From Melioribacteraceae bacterium (lineage in GTDB: Bacteria > Bacteroidota > Ignavibacteria > Ignavibacteriales > Melioribacteraceae), in the NCBI GenBank assembly GCA_026987055.1, contig JALSNL010000330.1:1-10063 (forward strand): 10,063 bases of DNA. The letters are read 5' to 3'. How positions within the stretch are numbered: position 1 is the stretch's first letter; every line of letters starts with the position of its first letter. The translations under genes were made by a program, and so were the position numbers. Under the pieces are notes generated by a model. That model was not told the DNA's origin, ran no database searches, and was given only the letters and a program-made list of their open reading frames with translations. Of this stretch, positions 749 through 7,590 are shown piece by piece.

Positions 749-3013
749 TTACTCTTCTTTGCTTCCAGTTAACTTGAAATTTGTTTTTAATAAATCTTTA
801 TCATTTGCCGAACTACCTACAAATAGTTCAAAATCACCGGGTTCTGTGTTATATTGCATATTTATATCATAAAATTTCAAGTCTTCAGAAGTAAGTTCAA
901 AATTTATTTTTTTTGTTTCTCCCGGAATAAATTCTACTTTCTTAAATCTCTTAAGCTCTTTAACCGGTCTTGTTACACTTGCATACAAGTCTCTAATATA
1001 AAGCTGAATTGTTTCTTTAGCTTTATATTTACCGGTGTTTGCAACTGTTACAGATACTTTTAATGTATCATTAAAATCAATATTTTTTTTCGATAGAGTT
1101 AAATCGGAATAGTTAAAACTTGAGTAAGACTCTCCGTAGCCAAAATAGTAAGCCGGTGTAAAATCAACATCCAAATAATAGCTGGCAAATCCTTCAGGGT
1201 TTTCCGGTGTTCCAAGCGTACGCCCTAATTGATTTGCAGATGGAGGTCTTCCTGTATTTTTGTGATTATAATAGATCGGAACTTGTCCAACTGTTCTGGG
1301 AAAAGTTACAGGTAATTTACCGGAAGGTGATGTTTTACCAAAGATAATATCAGAGATTGCTTCTCCACCCATCGTACCCGGATGCCATGCGTATAAAATG
1401 CTATTTACTTTATCAGTTATATTTCCAAAAGTTAATGGTCGTCCTGCCATAATTATTAGAACTAATGGTTTGCCTAATTTGGAAAGTTCTGTAATTAAAT
1501 CTTCTTGATTTCCAGGTAAATTTATAAACGCTCTTGAATGAGTTTCTCCTGAAAGGTTAGCATCTTCACCCAAAAATAGCAGAGCAGCATCTGATTGTTT
1601 AACTGCATCTATTGCATTTTGAAAATATTTTGTATCGTTACTTCTGCAAGTAGCCATAGCTTTGACATATTTAATTTTTATAGTTTCTCCAAACTCTTTA
1701 GTAATAGCAGTTAATGGTGTTATGGTATTTTTTGCCTTTCCATCAAGTGTCCATGTTCCCAGTTGATCTTTAGGAGCATCTGCAAGAGGTCCTATTATTG
1801 CAAGACTTTTTAAAGATTTTGTTTTTAGCGGCAGGGTTTGGTTTTTATTTTGTAGCATCACAACACTTTCCGTAGCTATTTCTTTTGCTATTGCTTTATT
1901 TGTTTTACATAAAATTGTAGATTCTTCGAAATTTCTAATGTAAGGATTTTCAAAAAGACCCAACTTAAATTTAATCCGCAATATTCCGGCAACCAATTCA
2001 TCAATCCACTGTGTACTGATTTTACCGCTTTCCACTAATTGTTTTAAGTATTTAGTATAATTTTCAGAAACCATCTCCATGTTAACACCGGCATTAACAG
2101 CTTTTAACGCAGCTTCTTTACCGTCTTTGGCAAATCCATGTTTAATTAATTCATCCACAGAAGTCCAATCACTTACAACAAACCCGTCGAATTTCCATTC
2201 ATCTCTTAAAATAGTTTTGAGTGTAAAGCTATTTCCGGTGGTAGGTACTCCATTAAGATCATTAAAAGCACTCATTAAAGTTGCAACACCGGCTTTAACT
2301 ACAGCATGAAAAGGTTTAAGGTAAACATCACGTAATTCTCTTTCGGGTATTAAAGTTGTATTGTAATCTTTGCCTCCTTCGGCGGCACCATAACCAACAT
2401 AATGTTTTGCACATGCAGCAATTGTATTTGCAGACTTAAGGTCGTTACCCTGAAATCCCTTTACCATTGCTGACCCAATAATACTAGCTAAATAGGGATC
2501 TTCGCCGCAAGATTCTGCTATTCTTCCCCACCTGGGATCTCTGGCAATATCTATCATCGGGGCAAAAGTCCAGTGAATTCCATCTTCAGCAGCTTCCCGT
2601 GCAGAAATTTCTGTTCCTCTTTTTACCAAATCCGGATTCCATGTAGAAGCTTGTCCTAATGGAATTGGGAGCACTGTTTTATAACCGTGAATTACATCTC
2701 TACCAAAAATAAGAGGAATACCCAGTCGTGATTTTTCAACCGCAGCTTTTTGAAGTTTAATTTTATCTTGTTTATTTCCGGCATTTAAGAAAGAGCCTAC
2801 TTTCCCTTTTGCAACAGTATCAATTACTTTACTATTCATTTGCCAAAGATTTAATTGCTGCATTTGCCCAATCTTTTCTTCCAAGGTCATTTTACTTATC
2901 AAGTCAGAAATTCTTAGTTCTATATCAGCATTTGCATTTTTATATGTTTGAGCTAAAAAATGGTTGGAAATAAAAAAAACAAAAAACAAAAATAACTTAA
3001 CACGATACTGCAT
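749..3013 (-). CDS. GH3 beta-glucosidase, BglX type, exported
   Basis: This 754-residue protein is the usual length for periplasmic BglX-type enzymes, which remove non-reducing-end beta-glucose from oligosaccharides. Residues 1-21 are a signal peptide (hydrophobic core, cleavage near FLAQ). The N-terminal TIM barrel carries GRDVIHG (104-110), RDPRWGR (158-164), the substrate-binding KH (203-204) and the nucleophile Asp282 in SDW. The alpha/beta sandwich follows at about 380-575, with Glu490 in the SGETHSR loop as the likely acid/base, judged by position against E. coli BglX. A fibronectin III-like domain closes the protein (about 650-750). All key residues are present. The ATG is firm: GAGGG lies 4 nt upstream and an in-frame TAA at 3026-3028 blocks extension. 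It heads a two-gene unit with GH2. Beside a GH144 enzyme, its substrate may be sophoro-oligosaccharides, as recalled for a Bacteroides GH3 homologue, but linkage preference cannot be read from sequence. Confidence 0.95.
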   Translation of the reverse strand: MQYRVKLFLFFVFFISNHFLAQTYKNANADIELRISDLISKMTLEEKIGQMQQLNLWQMNSKVIDTVAKGKVGSFLNAGNKQDKIKLQKAAVEKSRLGIPLIFGRDVIHGYKTVLPIPLGQASTWNPDLVKRGTEISAREAAEDGIHWTFAPMIDIARDPRWGRIAESCGEDPYLASIIGSAMVKGFQGNDLKSANTIAACAKHYVGYGAAEGGKDYNTTLIPERELRDVYLKPFHAVVKAGVATLMSAFNDLNGVPTTGNSFTLKTILRDEWKFDGFVVSDWTSVDELIKHGFAKDGKEAALKAVNAGVNMEMVSENYTKYLKQLVESGKISTQWIDELVAGILRIKFKLGLFENPYIRNFEESTILCKTNKAIAKEIATESVVMLQNKNQTLPLKTKSLKSLAIIGPLADAPKDQLGTWTLDGKAKNTITPLTAITKEFGETIKIKYVKAMATCRSNDTKYFQNAIDAVKQSDAALLFLGEDANLSGETHSRAFINLPGNQEDLITELSKLGKPLVLIIMAGRPLTFGNITDKVNSILYAWHPGTMGGEAISDIIFGKTSPSGKLPVTFPRTVGQVPIYYNHKNTGRPPSANQLGRTLGTPENPEGFASYYLDVDFTPAYYFGYGESYSSFNYSDLTLSKKNIDFNDTLKVSVTVANTGKYKAKETIQLYIRDLYASVTRPVKELKRFKKVEFIPGETKKINFELTSEDLKFYDINMQYNTEPGDFELFVGSSANDKDLLKTNFKLTGSKEE
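752..757 (-). promoter_or_regulatory. Ribosome binding site of the GH2 gene, inside the GH3 3' end
   Basis: On the minus strand GAAGAG lies 8 nt before the GH2 ATG and overlaps the last sense codons of the GH3 gene. It supports the chosen GH2 start, although the frame stays open further upstream, and suggests translational coupling. Confidence 0.55.
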
Positions 3014-3292
3014 TATTCCCTCTTTTTAATTTTATATCATTATATAATAACAATAACTATACCATTATTAAAAGCTTGAAAATTAGTTGAATTAAGTATT
3101 TTATTTTATGACTATCAAAAGTTATTATTAAAATAATAACATGCATTATTATTTTAATAATAATTTGAAAATTAAAATATTATATTTAACTGTAGGAGCT
3201 TATCACAAAGGATAGAAATAATAGACAATAAGAAAATTACACCTCTTAAATTTCATAAAAAATGGTTAATGAAAAATATAAAAGATAGTATT
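3014..3292 (-). promoter_or_regulatory. Gene-free leader upstream of the GH3-GH2 unit
   Basis: This 279-bp gap is very AT-rich and has no convincing ORF on either strand. It should hold the GH3 promoter. A perfect TATAAT (minus strand, 3044-3039) lies about 26 bp before the GH3 ATG, and TATAGT lies at 3061-3056, but neither has a good -35 box at normal spacing. I found no GG-N10-GC sigma54 signature on the minus strand here. The GH3 ribosome binding site GAGGG is at 3022-3018. The only striking structure is the nested palindrome at 3121-3164. Nothing notable is seen in 3165-3292. Confidence 0.45.
3121..3164. repeat. Nested AT palindrome: two dyads forming one larger inverted repeat
   Basis: Two 20-bp dyads sit side by side. 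The first, at 3121-3140, has perfect 9-bp arms (GTTATTATT / AATAATAAC) around AA. The second, at 3145-3164, has perfect 9-bp arms (ATTATTATT / AATAATAAT) around TT. The two are also reverse complements of each other over 18 bp (3122-3139 and 3146-3163) around the hexamer CATGCA, so the whole block can fold as one long hairpin. It lies about 130 bp past the response regulator stop and about 110 bp before the GH3 start. A paired operator, an AU-only mRNA hairpin, or low-complexity drift are all possible. Confidence 0.7.
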
Positions 3293-4747
3293 TTATTTTA
3301 AGCCAAGTTCTTTACACATTCTGTAATAATTCGGTGGAGCTAACCCTAGTTTTTGTGCGGCTTCAGCATCCGAAGATGCGTTTTTTCTAATAAAAAGGAA
3401 GTACTCTTTCCTAAATTTTTTCTCCATTTCTTTAAGTGGAATAACTGAATTTTGGTTACTAAAATTAAATATACCATTTGATTTAGTATTAACAAATAAT
3501 CTATCTACCAAAGATTTATCAACAATTTCTTTAGTAATAACTTCATGTTCGTTCAACAACAAGCGTTGAACAACATTTTTTAACTCTCTGATATTACCGC
3601 GCCAATCATAATTTTTTAGATGTAAAATTGCCGCATCTGAAAATTCAGGCATTGCTATTCCCATATCGCTACAATATCTTTTTACAAAATGATTAATTAG
3701 CAATGGAATATCTTCAGCTCTGTCTTTTAATGAAGGTATGTGAATTCGTACTACATTTAATCTGTAATATAAATCTTCTCTAAATTTATTTTGATTTACG
3801 CGTTCCTCTAAATTTGTATTTGTAGCGGCAATAATTCTTACATCTACTTTAACAACATCCGTTCTTCCTATTTTTTCTATTTCACCATCTTGAATAACAC
3901 GTAATAGTTTAACTTGAGCCGACAAAGGTAATTCGGATATTTCGTCTAAAAAAATTGTCCCTTTATCGGCAATTTCAAATAATCCTTTTTTCTCGTTTCC
4001 GGCTCCGGTAAATGCTCCTTTTTCATAGCCGAATAATTCACTTTCAATTAGTTCCTGCGGTAAACTTCCGCAGTTTATTCTTATAAACTTTTCAAATTTT
4101 CTTTTTCCCTTGTAATGAATGTGGTACGCAACCAACTCTTTCCCTGTGCCGGAAGCTCCGTCAATTAGGATATTTAATTCATTAAGTGATAATTTTTCAA
4201 TTTGAGATTTAAGCGCAATTATTTCTTCCGAATTCCCCACTATTTCTTTTTCATCAAGTATTGTATCTATATTTTGAGATAATTTTTTATTGGAAGCATA
4301 AGTTTGTTTTTCCAAAACTCTTTTTTCGAATGCATTAAAAATTGATAAAACAAAGTCCGTAGGTTGATATATATAATTTTCAATATCACCAGGATATTTT
4401 GTGCAATACCAAAATGCTCCGGATTCAATAAGAGCATTAGCAAATTTGAAATCCGTTATGTTAATTGTAAGTTTGGTTATTACAATAATCTGAATAGTTG
4501 AATCTACTTTTTTTATTTCCTTTATTAAATCTTCACCTTTTATACCGCCGGCAATTTGAAAATCCATTATAACAATACTAAAATAATTTGGTCTTGCTTT
4601 AAGTAAATTTAATGCATCGGTACCGTTAGAAACTATTTCCTTTATTTTTATTTTATTATTAAACGGTTCAATTGTATTTAGCACTCTTTTAACATCAAAG
4701 TCTTCATCTTCAATAAGTAAAATATTTATATTTACATCTGTGGTCAT
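3293..4747 (-). CDS. Sigma54-dependent response regulator, NtrC family
   Basis: This 484-residue protein has the full three-domain NtrC layout. The receiver (about 7-140) has the acidic cluster Glu13-Asp14-Glu15, phosphoacceptor Asp62, Thr91 and Lys117. The AAA+ domain (about 168-400) has Walker A GASGTGKE (197-204), the sigma54-contacting loop GAFTGA (244-249), Walker B IFLDE (265-269) and the arginine-rich FREDLYYRL segment (322-330). The C-terminal Fis-type helix-turn-helix (about 440-484) includes EAAQKLGLAPPNYYR (462-476). All key residues are intact, so it should be a phosphorylation-controlled activator that remodels sigma54 RNA polymerase using ATP. The start is firm: AGGA lies 6 nt upstream and an in-frame TAA at 4751-4753 blocks extension. 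The kinase gene ends 23 bp upstream, so that kinase is the likely partner. Its targets are probably the flanking glycosidase genes, but no sigma54 promoter is visible in the window. Confidence 0.95.
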   Translation of the reverse strand: MTTDVNINILLIEDEDFDVKRVLNTIEPFNNKIKIKEIVSNGTDALNLLKARPNYFSIVIMDFQIAGGIKGEDLIKEIKKVDSTIQIIVITKLTINITDFKFANALIESGAFWYCTKYPGDIENYIYQPTDFVLSIFNAFEKRVLEKQTYASNKKLSQNIDTILDEKEIVGNSEEIIALKSQIEKLSLNELNILIDGASGTGKELVAYHIHYKGKRKFEKFIRINCGSLPQELIESELFGYEKGAFTGAGNEKKGLFEIADKGTIFLDEISELPLSAQVKLLRVIQDGEIEKIGRTDVVKVDVRIIAATNTNLEERVNQNKFREDLYYRLNVVRIHIPSLKDRAEDIPLLINHFVKRYCSDMGIAMPEFSDAAILHLKNYDWRGNIRELKNVVQRLLLNEHEVITKEIVDKSLVDRLFVNTKSNGIFNFSNQNSVIPLKEMEKKFRKEYFLFIRKNASSDAEAAQKLGLAPPNYYRMCKELGLK

Positions 4748-4770
4748 AGTTTATCCTGCTTGGATTTTAA

Positions 4771-6246
4771 TTAGTAAATAATTTTAAATTCACATCCGCC
4801 ATTTGATTTATTTTCAACATCTAATTTCCAACCACATCTTTGTGTTGCTATTTGATATGCTATATAACAACCGTAACCTCTGTTTTGACTTTCAAAATTT
4901 CTTGTTGATGTATTTTCTAAAAATATTTTTTTTATGCCGTTTTCATTTTTTTTCAAAAGACTCTTTTTAATTCCTATACCGTTATCTACAATTGAAATTA
5001 TTGATTCATTTTTAGCTGAATTATAATATGTGGAAATTGTAATTATTAAATTTTTTACATTTCCATGGTCAATGCTATTTTGAATCAGAGGTTCTATTAA
5101 TTCCCAGACAACATATTCGTTTATAGCAACTTCCGGTAGTTTACTATCCAGATTTAATTTAAATGTAAAAATATCTGTCTTCGAAGATATTCTCAAAAAT
5201 AAATTATTTACAATAAATGTTATAACTTCATTCACATCAGTTTTAAAAATTGGATTTCTTATTGTTTGCACGGGAGGATCGTACCATTTCATATCATAAA
5301 TAACACGTGATACAAAATTGGAATATTTATATAATTTTTCCTTAACTTCGTTTATATTTTTTTCGTTTAAGCTTTTTAAATCTTCTTTAATAAATCCCAT
5401 TACTTTTTCTGCTTTATGATGTGTATGATAAATTCGTTTTGTAAAAAGGGATTCTTTTTCGTGCATAATTTTATCTTTAAGATGCCTTTCATGTTCTTCA
5501 AATAATAGTTTTTGAGCTTGGTCTCTTTGATTTACCGAGTAAGATGAAATTAAAAACATTGCTATCAATCCTAACAATATTAGTATTGAATATATAATTG
5601 CAACTTCATTGTAGCCTGAAAGAATATCTTCCGTAATAAAAGAAAAATTGGGTGTGTTTTTCATATATAAAACACCTAAAAATTCACCGTGCGGAACTAA
5701 AGGAACAAGTACATGAAAAGTTTCTTCCGGTTTTTGAATACTGTATATTTGTTCTTGATCTTGTATTATTTTTCTATTTTCTAATAACAGTTTTACTGCA
5801 TCATTATACTTAGTATCTATTTTTACAGGTTCATGTATTTTTCCATTTAAGTAATTATAGAATACTTTTCCGTCATCTATAACTAAAGGTTTATTATTAT
5901 AAAATACTATTAAGCAACTTAGTTCAACATCTTGCTCTAATAATTGTTGGCTAAAAATTATATTGAACGATTCAATAATTTTTGTTTTGGATTCTTCTGT
6001 AATCTGATCACCTACTTGAATATATTCCATCAGTAATTCTAATGATGTTGTAGATAAATTTGCAATTCTTTCGGCAGATTCTTTCTGATACCAGTCTTGG
6101 GTTCTTCTCAGAAAATTTTCTAATGAGGATTTTTGCACTAAAGAAAAAATAATTTGAAAAACTACCAGTATAAAAAGTATAACTGTTATATGCCTTAATT
6201 CAAAATGATACTTCTTTAATTTATTTTGTATCTCTTTTTTAAGCAT
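4771..6246 (-). CDS. Membrane sensor histidine kinase with atypical H-box
   Basis: The 491-residue protein has membrane segments at about 19-38 and 214-236, flanking an extracytoplasmic sensor region of some 175 residues that I do not recognise. It could be a Cache- or PAS-like fold. A likely coiled coil (about 240-270) leads to a DHp-like helix with His274, His276 and His277 (motif YHTHHKAEK). The sequence does not show which is phosphorylated. The ATPase domain is clear: N-box ELIEPLIQNSIDHG (382-395), G1 box DNGIGI (421-426), and a degenerate G2 box RGYGCYIAYQIA (456-467) that lacks the usual last glycine. It should autophosphorylate and pass phosphate to the regulator encoded 23 bp downstream. 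The start is firm because the upstream gene's TAA at 6253-6255 is in frame. No Shine-Dalgarno is evident. The 6-bp gap from the binding-protein gene suggests the two proteins work together. Confidence 0.9.
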   Translation of the reverse strand: MLKKEIQNKLKKYHFELRHITVILFILVVFQIIFSLVQKSSLENFLRRTQDWYQKESAERIANLSTTSLELLMEYIQVGDQITEESKTKIIESFNIIFSQQLLEQDVELSCLIVFYNNKPLVIDDGKVFYNYLNGKIHEPVKIDTKYNDAVKLLLENRKIIQDQEQIYSIQKPEETFHVLVPLVPHGEFLGVLYMKNTPNFSFITEDILSGYNEVAIIYSILILLGLIAMFLISSYSVNQRDQAQKLLFEEHERHLKDKIMHEKESLFTKRIYHTHHKAEKVMGFIKEDLKSLNEKNINEVKEKLYKYSNFVSRVIYDMKWYDPPVQTIRNPIFKTDVNEVITFIVNNLFLRISSKTDIFTFKLNLDSKLPEVAINEYVVWELIEPLIQNSIDHGNVKNLIITISTYYNSAKNESIISIVDNGIGIKKSLLKKNENGIKKIFLENTSTRNFESQNRGYGCYIAYQIATQRCGWKLDVENKSNGGCEFKIIY

Positions 6247-6252
6247 AGTAAA

Positions 6253-7590
6253 TTATTTAATAATAAAAGATTCGGAATAAATATTTTTATTTGCATATTT
6301 CAAAGCTTCTTTAACATCCATTTCGCCTTTTATTGCTTTATTAGAATAATAAGAAAATATATCGGATATTTTAGTATAGTCTTTTTTAAAAGGTCTGTGA
6401 ATTCCTCTTTCTAATAAAGAACTATAAAATAAAATATCAGGATTTTCAGCAATAAAATCTTTATTATGATAGAGTGATTTAATAACCGGTAAAAAACCTG
6501 CTTTAGCATATAGAACTTTTTGGGATTCTTCTTTTAGAACAAACTTAATAAATTGTAATGCTTCTTTTTTATGTTTGCTAAATTTTGAAATCATAAAATT
6601 CCATCCACCGAAAACAGATACCGGTTTAGTCCCTTTCGGATGTGGTAATGGAACTTTTACAATAAATTTTTCTACATTATACTCTTTGAGCATTTTCTTT
6701 TTATCTCTACTAAACCCAGGCCAACCTCTTAAAAACAAACCATTGTTTCTAATATAATATTCCCAAGAATTATTTTCTTTAAAATTTACTACTTCCTTTG
6801 GAGACATTTTATATTTATATACTAAATCCACTAAAAACTGTAAAGCTTCTTCAGTAGCTTTATCTTGAAGGTCTATTTTTTTCTTAAATGAATCCGGGGA
6901 CTTACTTCTAATTAATTCTGTTAAGCTACAAATAAGTCCTTCATAATTATTTGCTTGAAAAATGTAAAATGGGTTTTTATTTTTTTTAAAATTTTTGCTT
7001 AGTTTTATAAAATTTTCCCAAGTGATAGAAGCACTTAACTCTTTTTTAATTGCTTGATAATTTGGCAACTGTTTTAATAAATCTTTACGATAATACATTA
7101 AAGCAATATCAATATAAAGTGGTAAGGCAACAAGTTTATTTTGATAGTAACAAGACTCCATTGAATATTCCAGTAACTTATTTTCGATGCCATCTAAATC
7201 TTGAACATTAAAAGCTTCGCACCATTTTGCAAAACGAGCTACCCAAATTATATCAACAGTAAAAACATCTATCTTATCGCTTTTACTTCTTAGTGATCTT
7301 GCTAAAAGTTCCTTCCGTTCATTTGTGCTAAATTTGTTAAAAGGTAAATCAATTGGTTCAACTTTTATTTTACCTTTGTTTTCTTCATTAAATTTATCAA
7401 TCAGTAATTTATGTGCGGCAGATAAATTATCAGCATATGTAATTATTATTTCTTTTTGTCCACTATGCTTACTTGTTAGTTGCGGATAAATAATTAGAAT
7501 AAAAAATATTAGAATTACAAAAACAAATAATGCTTGTTGTAAATAATAATTCTTAAACTTTATTTTTAGTATTTCAATAATTCTGTGCAT
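6253..7590 (-). CDS. Membrane-anchored extracellular solute-binding protein, family 1 (sugar type)
   Basis: The protein is 445 residues. A single hydrophobic segment (about 20-38) follows a basic N-terminus, with no lipobox cysteine and no clear signal peptidase site, so it is probably held in the inner membrane with the binding domain outside. The rest resembles MalE-like family 1 binding proteins: VDIIWVARFAKWCEAF (112-127), ALPLYIDIALMYYRKDLL (155-172), LRGWPGF (287-293), VFGGWNFMISK (326-336) and EALQFIKFVLKEESQKVLY (343-361). Aromatics such as Trp290 and Trp330 suit sugar stacking, but the ligand is unknown. Such proteins normally deliver substrate to an ABC importer. None is adjacent; the next gene, 6 bp on, is a sensor kinase. 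I infer a sensory role. The start is firm (in-frame TAA at 7597-7599), with no Shine-Dalgarno. An importer elsewhere in the genome cannot be excluded. Confidence 0.88.
   Translation of the reverse strand: MHRIIEILKIKFKNYYLQQALFVFVILIFFILIIYPQLTSKHSGQKEIIITYADNLSAAHKLLIDKFNEENKGKIKVEPIDLPFNKFSTNERKELLARSLRSKSDKIDVFTVDIIWVARFAKWCEAFNVQDLDGIENKLLEYSMESCYYQNKLVALPLYIDIALMYYRKDLLKQLPNYQAIKKELSASITWENFIKLSKNFKKNKNPFYIFQANNYEGLICSLTELIRSKSPDSFKKKIDLQDKATEEALQFLVDLVYKYKMSPKEVVNFKENNSWEYYIRNNGLFLRGWPGFSRDKKKMLKEYNVEKFIVKVPLPHPKGTKPVSVFGGWNFMISKFSKHKKEALQFIKFVLKEESQKVLYAKAGFLPVIKSLYHNKDFIAENPDILFYSSLLERGIHRPFKKDYTKISDIFSYYSNKAIKGEMDVKEALKYANKNIYSESFIIK

Follow-up and report, generated by a model that had tools for sequence, protein, structure and literature searches.

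A conserved gene trio predicted to form a transporter-free sugar sensor acting on sigma54 promoters in Ignavibacteria and related lineages

The window analyzed here, a stretch of 10,063 nucleotides, is the whole contig JALSNL010000330.1 of a Melioribacteraceae metagenome-assembled genome (MAG; 2.35 Mb, 458 contigs, 68.6% complete). Its minus strand carries three consecutive genes encoding a family 1 sugar-binding protein of the solute-binding type (SBP; positions 6253 to 7590), a histidine kinase (HK; 4771 to 6246), and an NtrC-type response regulator (RR; 3293 to 4747), separated by gaps of 6 and 23 bp. Judging from sequence evidence, we consider it quite probable that this trio is a dedicated three-component sugar sensor that works without a transporter and activates the sigma54 promoters of polysaccharide use genes, in the window probably those for beta-1,2-glucan. 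The trio is flanked by glycosidases on the same strand. A GH144-like endo-beta-1,2-glucanase gene (PF10091; 7659 to 10061, its 5' end cut by the contig), with a CBM30 module and a type IX secretion system (T9SS) tail, precedes the SBP gene by 68 bp, and on the other side are found a GH3 beta-glucosidase (749 to 3013) and, 5 bp after it, a GH2 glycosidase cut by the contig end (3 to 743). No permease or transporter ATPase was detected among the six window proteins scanned with Pfam. A first-pass annotation had already given this layout, and the open reading frame (ORF) coordinates and Pfam agree with it on the positions, strand, and gaps of the trio, on the identities of its three genes, on the flanking glycosidases, and on the lack of a transport gene. 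The three genes are separate, rather than fused into one chain as in the hybrid two-component architecture of Bacteroidetes.

Relatives of the SBP were present in 69 of 97 related genomes and fell into two groups. Among 100 SBP neighborhoods (L033 to L132), 73 belonged to group A, with at least 34% identity, and 27 were picked among the weaker matches. The next same-strand gene was the kinase in all 71 group A loci in which the contig continued (it stops short in L097 and L102). In 69 of these the regulator came next; in the other two, L075 and L090, the contig ends inside the kinase. The 26 weaker SBPs (22 to 30% identity; none was seen in L131) were mostly followed by two permease-size ORFs, and all eight of these that were tested belonged to BPD_transp_1, the permease family of ATP-binding cassette (ABC) importers. 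After addition of loci chosen by their kinase (L134 to L283) and removal of 65 duplicates, 155 distinct kinases were available, 70 SBP chosen and 85 kinase chosen. The SBP gene was directly upstream in 151 of the 152 loci where this could be evaluated, and the regulator directly downstream in 144 of 145, with median gaps of 7 bp (n = 145) and 10 bp (n = 138). When MalFG-type permease profiles were derived from the 26 ABC loci, they matched 53 ORFs there and none in the trio loci. This arrangement is far beyond chance, and the trio is a conserved module. The adjacency without ABC permeases that the first-pass annotation had asked to be sought in related genomes, and the linkage to the kinase whose lack it had regarded as damaging, are thus both present. 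A further concern of that annotation, homologs found routinely beside permeases, does not apply to the close family, although the SBPs of 22 to 30% identity do adjoin them.

Two further features of these neighborhoods were examined. An ORF of 755 amino acids in L173 (same contig as L268) that resembled an SBP-HK fusion turned out to be the SBP region read out of frame. When same-strand ORFs of 590 to 660 amino acids were sought within 60 bp upstream of the SBP, one of 606 to 646 amino acids was found ending no more than 30 bp from it in 13 of 131 trios (L037, L040, L044, L056, L070, L078, L082, L092, L166, L260, L264, L266, and L279). The one in L070 is a PPIC/SurA-like peptidyl-prolyl isomerase, possibly a folding factor of the same operon, but an ORF of this kind in only 13 of 131 trios led us to discard it as a fourth component.

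The window SBP matched SBP_bac_1 and SBP_bac_8 (PF01547/PF13416), and its closest solved relative by profile was the trehalose/maltose-binding protein 1eu8 (E value of 3.9e-74). We aligned 130 trio sequences to ten columns of 1eu8, chosen as those that we take to contact trehalose. Nine were near invariant or strongly kept (D113, W290, G328, R399, and Y405 in all sequences, W330 in 129, R92 in 126, Y216 in 117 with F in the other 13, and D161 in 113), and the one that varied was Y159 (75, plus 25 with F). Given that these columns are kept, trio SBPs should still bind a sugar in a pocket resembling that of the trehalose/maltose-binding protein. An N-terminal hydrophobic segment, found in 72 of the 73 group A SBPs, is a predicted membrane anchor. 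A lipoprotein-like cysteine was seen in none of these 73, against 24 of 26 ABC-linked SBPs (11 of 26 with a stricter lipoprotein regular expression). The trio SBPs therefore show neither adjacent permeases nor the lipoprotein form, the two marks of an ABC importer receptor in this lineage.

In the kinase, Pfam recognized only HATPase_c (PF02518). Two hydrophobic segments (residues ca. 19 to 37 and 213 to 235, delimited by eye) flank an extracytoplasmic domain of about 175 residues (ca. 39 to 212), which is a distinct conserved domain. It had no Pfam match in the window protein and only scattered weak ones in other members, and its profile retrieved from PDB designed repeat proteins over some 26 residues and then nothing better than an E value of 0.75; with no consistent relative in either database, we claim no fold for it. 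The ATP-binding boxes N, G1, F, and G2 are all there, with N390, D421, G423, F442, G457, and G459 invariant in 130 sequences. No HisKA-type dimerization and histidine phosphotransfer (DHp) family was matched up to an E value of 10 in four kinases. The window kinase gave no HAMP match. The H-box, YHTHHKAEK (region of residues 265 to 281), is unusual, and its H274 (129 of 130) and H277 (130 of 130) are candidate phospho-acceptors through which phosphotransfer might proceed.

The regulator matched Response_reg, Sigma54_activat, and the AAA lid in Pfam. It has all the attributes of an NtrC-family enhancer-binding protein, namely, a receiver domain (REC) with a phosphorylatable aspartate, an AAA+ domain with GAFTGA, and a C-terminal helix-turn-helix (HTH). 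Its phospho-acceptor set (D62, T91, and K117) was kept in 130 of 130 sequences. The GAFTGA motif is intact in the window protein, and in the family (n = 130), F, T, and the last A were found in all members, the first G in 128, the fifth-position G in 119, and the second-position A in 87. The AraC-type output domain that would mark a LytS/YesN-type system is missing, Sigma54_activat, the AAA lid, and GAFTGA standing in its place. The host MAG carries rpoN, the gene of the sigma factor itself, as do 36 of the 38 related genomes searched.

A sigma54-type promoter, TGGTATAGTTATTGTT (3049 to 3064, minus strand), ends 35 bp ahead of the start codon of GH3, the first gene of a putative target operon. 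To score such sites, we used weights set from the sigma54 consensus. Of 53 genes following the regulator, 26 were preceded by a site scoring at least 12, and none was when the reverse strand was scored; elsewhere in the trio loci such sites preceded 14 of 197 genes, and in the ABC loci 2 of 94. In held-out loci, fetched later, the figures were 19 of 47 (4 on the reverse strand) versus 17 of 180 other genes (Fisher P value of 2e-6). Without any weights, GG-N8-TTG occurred in 61 of 100 regions downstream from the regulator, compared with 9 of these 100 when the opposite strand was read and 114 in a set of 550 other regions; this was the one spacing that stood out. The top dyad of a de novo count before the gene following the regulator was likewise TGG-N8-TTG (52 of 100 versus 40 of 550), the sigma54 -24/-12 signature.

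The same count gave TAT-N7-ATA and relatives. These could be reduced to TTAT-N7-ATAA, which was present in 57 of 100 regions downstream from the regulator and in 94 of the 550 others. The extended consensus is a palindrome, TTATYA-N3-TRATAA, located upstream of the sigma54 site and often in tandem. At least two copies were found in 42 of 100 regions downstream from the regulator and in 57 of 550 others, and 37 of 44 successive spacings were 21 to 23 bp. The window has three matches (0.03 expected), none assigned to a strand. The distal copy, TTATYANNNTRATAA (3146 to 3160), and the proximal copy (3125 to 3139) have their centers 21 bp apart, with the -24 box 60 bp downstream of the proximal copy, and the third, a single copy, lies within the SBP coding sequence (6338 to 6352), with the kinase start ca. 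90 bp farther downstream. The tandem pair of the window was the only one in the whole host MAG (none in the reversed control). In the 97 relatives, 91 pairs were detected in 43 genomes, against one in the reversed control, and these were 43 of the 63 genomes with a trio and none of the 34 without (Fisher P value of 2e-12, ignoring relatedness). Among the 75 pairs listed of the 91, 42 had a trio SBP no more than 10 kb away. Since palindrome and trio co-occur, we take the tandem palindrome as the putative site of the trio regulator. The distance from the pair to the best sigma54 site, in 31 loci (one per genome), was 58 to 63 bp in 11, 70 to 74 bp in 10, and elsewhere in 10, so that the two classes are one helical turn apart. 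Among regulator-downstream regions with both site and palindrome (n = 55), 17 were at 58 to 63 bp and 14 at 69 to 74 bp. Single palindromes were rejected as a means of finding regulons, as they showed no genome-wide enrichment in the host and only the tandem pair was specific. Clusters of tandem palindromes at G006:C1:1094091-1127829 and G030:C14:4901-21964, far from any trio found or on another contig, are candidate regulon islands controlled in trans.

The genes following the regulator include many of polysaccharide use. Scans covered 55 of the 61 genes in first position and 44 of the 51 in second position, among which SSF symporters (8 of 55 and 12 of 44) and TonB receptors (8 of 55 and 8 of 44) were recurrent. 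T9SS-tailed proteins (24 of 55), GH5 (15 of 55), and GH2 (10 of 55) were found among the first genes. Upstream of the SBP (54 of 68 genes scanned) were PPIase/SurA-like proteins in up to 19 cases and MFS transporters in 9. Of ten genes that follow tandem pairs, nine lay at a distance from all trios found. The ten encoded five SSF symporters, one MFS transporter (the one near a trio), one GH9, one GH2, one TonB plug, and one protein without family. In the window, the flanking glucanase is similar to BDI_3064 (E value of 2.6e-185) and to the endo-beta-1,2-glucanase 5gzh (3.5e-150), and the GH3 enzyme resembles JMB19063, 5xxl, and Lin1840, the last two of which we take to act on beta-1,2-gluco-oligosaccharides. 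From the adjoining GH144 and GH3 genes, beta-1,2-glucan is probably the substrate of this trio; other trios stand beside different enzymes. The glucanase family also adjoins many ABC loci. In L108 to L130, ABC importers with family 1 lipoprotein SBPs stand beside homologs of the window GH144 gene, apparently as the transport counterpart of this locus.

A sample of 391 genomes from the class yielded the kinase in 115, and a sample of 395 from the phylum in 42, only four of the latter 42 lying outside the class, all in one family. The survey threshold was an E value of 1e-20 or better, with three to four candidates scored per genome, and copy numbers are therefore lower bounds. In GTDB contigs, 254 relatives were found, and 80 were kept. 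Trio carriers include Melioribacteraceae, Ignavibacteriales, Kryptoniota, Calditrichota/Caldithrix, KSB1, and the cultivated Stygiobacter electus 09-Me (its trio is in L266), and Ignavibacterium album JCM 16511 has an SBP with 48% identity to that of the window. An SBP-kinase pair in L230, labeled Deltaproteobacteria, is probably a binning error or a transfer.

Taken together, a route from receptor to promoter can be proposed. The SBP, tethered to the inner membrane by its N-terminal segment, would bind an oligosaccharide in the periplasm and act on the ectodomain of the neighboring kinase, which in turn would phosphorylate the regulator. The latter would then bind the paired TTATYA-N3-TRATAA ca. 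60 or 71 bp upstream of the -24/-12 promoter and open it, inducing (rather than repressing) glycosidases, outer membrane receptors, and SSF/MFS sugar symporters; in the window, the GH3-GH2 operon is the one predicted to be induced. The idea that a transport-type receptor was co-opted for signaling into a sigma54 response had been put forward in the first-pass annotation, which drew the sigma54 response from the regulator alone. As a reading, it gains from the conserved trio, from the zero permease matches in trio loci, and from the promoter and enhancer motifs that have now been found. For the output half, the evidence from sequence is unusually complete.

Several observations weigh against this interpretation. 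Mutual information (with average product correction) between SBP and HK in 130 sequences placed 18 of the top 50 pairs in the ectodomain and 25 in the linker/DHp, without ectodomain enrichment. The SBP-HK mirror-tree correlation of 0.83 (partial correlation of 0.45 given the RR) is explicable by linkage alone, so coevolution was discarded as proof of SBP-kinase contact. Two loci depart from the trio, L251 having kinase and regulator without SBP, and L261 having SBP and kinase without a recognized regulator. As for the promoter, the C of the -12 GC was conserved in just 20 of 72 selected sites (the window has T), and the single TGGYAYN5TTG match in the window, with 0.29 expected, is not significant by itself. 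No palindrome at all was found in 43 of 100 regulator-downstream regions, the exact tandem pair was absent from 20 of the 63 trio genomes, 24 of 55 regulator-downstream distances fell outside both classes, and single palindromes in the host MAG (10, versus 18 in the reversed control) were not enriched.

The same data can be set against other explanations. An orphan ABC importer whose other genes lie elsewhere might use the SBP as its receptor, and adjacency to the kinase would then only co-regulate uptake. SBPs of 22 to 30% identity in the same order are indeed ABC receptors with two BPD_transp_1 permeases, ABC_tran was matched in two of the 55 genes directly following the regulator (which also tells against a transporter-free sensor), and the host MAG is 31% incomplete. 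It seems very improbable nonetheless, as permease profiles matched nothing in trio loci, the lipoprotein cysteine has been lost from trio SBPs, SBP and kinase are associated one to one (151 of 152), and the linked transporters are SSF and MFS symporters. In the host MAG, PF00528 (MalFG-type permease) gave a single match, below the cutoff, and the only other PF01547 match is an ORF that we read as a PstS-type phosphate-binding protein. The absence of such a permease is weak evidence, because the MAG is incomplete, and the importer that the first-pass annotation had named as a possible objection is only partly answered by a genome 69% complete. It is also improbable that the kinase ectodomain itself senses the glycan, the SBP only sharpening affinity or being dispensable. 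The ectodomain is a distinct domain, and the two-component part of CuaDSR alone is reported still to perceive cellobiose (PMC10384115), but the SBP is maintained in nearly every locus, and the SBP has diverged about as fast as the ectodomain (mean pairwise identities of 0.44 and 0.41, compared to 0.70 for DHp, 0.61 for REC, and 0.74 for the last 24 RR residues with the HTH). The sign of signaling might also be the opposite, with the apo-SBP locking the kinase in one state until sugar releases it, an inhibitor as in LuxP-LuxQ rather than a ligand-dependent activator. The sequence carries no indication of the sign and nothing against this reading, and both modes are known in SBP-kinase systems; we think it somewhat unlikely.

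There seems to be an even chance that the trio is an undescribed lineage-wide system of Ignavibacteria, Calditrichota, and KSB1, in which a sugar receptor tethered to the membrane, together with a kinase of no known class and a sigma54 activator, is a main control of polysaccharide use. Genomes contain several trios that have diverged receptors together with a conserved DNA-reading helix (0.74) and a shared enhancer motif, so different receptors seem to feed regulators that read one motif, and a single regulon may respond to different sugars. This predicts cross talk or a common regulon in multi-trio genomes. The trio would provide a receptor-to-promoter prediction of how a large group of polysaccharide degraders, rich in uncultured members, may control its sugar genes. 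It joins a transport-type receptor to sigma54 control and brings in a kinase whose sensor domain and H-box are unclassified, and its enhancer motif could be used for mapping regulons by sequence alone.

No description of the trio was found in the open-license PMC literature. The accessible main text of a sigma54 regulon survey (PMC12316311) has no mention of Ignavibacteria, and the accessible text of the Melioribacter genome paper (PMC3534657) discusses sus operons and cellulases but no such system. Within the same class, the GH144 cluster of I. album combines GH144, GH3, and a Sop-binding family 1 SBP and resembles the ABC loci L108 to L130; its SBP is an ABC receptor, and no sensor appears in the available part of that article (PMC8861115). 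The hybrid two-component systems of Bacteroidetes polysaccharide utilization loci also sense periplasmic glycans beside the SusC/glycosidase operons that they control, but with sensor, kinase, and AraC-type output in a single chain, without separate SBP or sigma54. In LuxP-LuxQ and ChvE-VirA, a periplasmic binding protein hands its ligand to a kinase, but the kinase architecture is different and no conserved SBP-HK-NtrC operon is known. The XylFII-LytS-YesN system of Clostridium uses an SBP-kinase complex to sense sugar for a regulator and differs from the trio in SBP family, kinase type, and regulator type. It is cited in the CuaDSR study (PMC10384115). CuaDSR, from Ruminiclostridium cellulolyticum, is itself similar in that a sugar SBP gene adjoins sensor and regulator genes and the system controls sugar use genes; a two-hybrid assay is reported to show binding of its SBP to the kinase ectodomain (PMC10384115). 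There, a Gram-positive host has a lipoprotein SBP, a HAMP sensor, and a YesN/AraC-family regulator that induces an ABC importer operon, whereas the trio has an anchored SBP, no HAMP match, an NtrC regulator with a sigma54 promoter, and SSF/TonB/GH targets. The first-pass annotation, which did not know the arrangement with an NtrC-type regulator as a characterized system, stands as far as the open-license literature goes. Since CuaDSR, with its family 1 sugar SBP, kinase, and regulator, is already characterized, sugar sensing by an SBP and a two-component system is not new as a principle; the new elements of the trio are its NtrC/sigma54 output, the tethering of its SBP, and a kinase that is unclassified.

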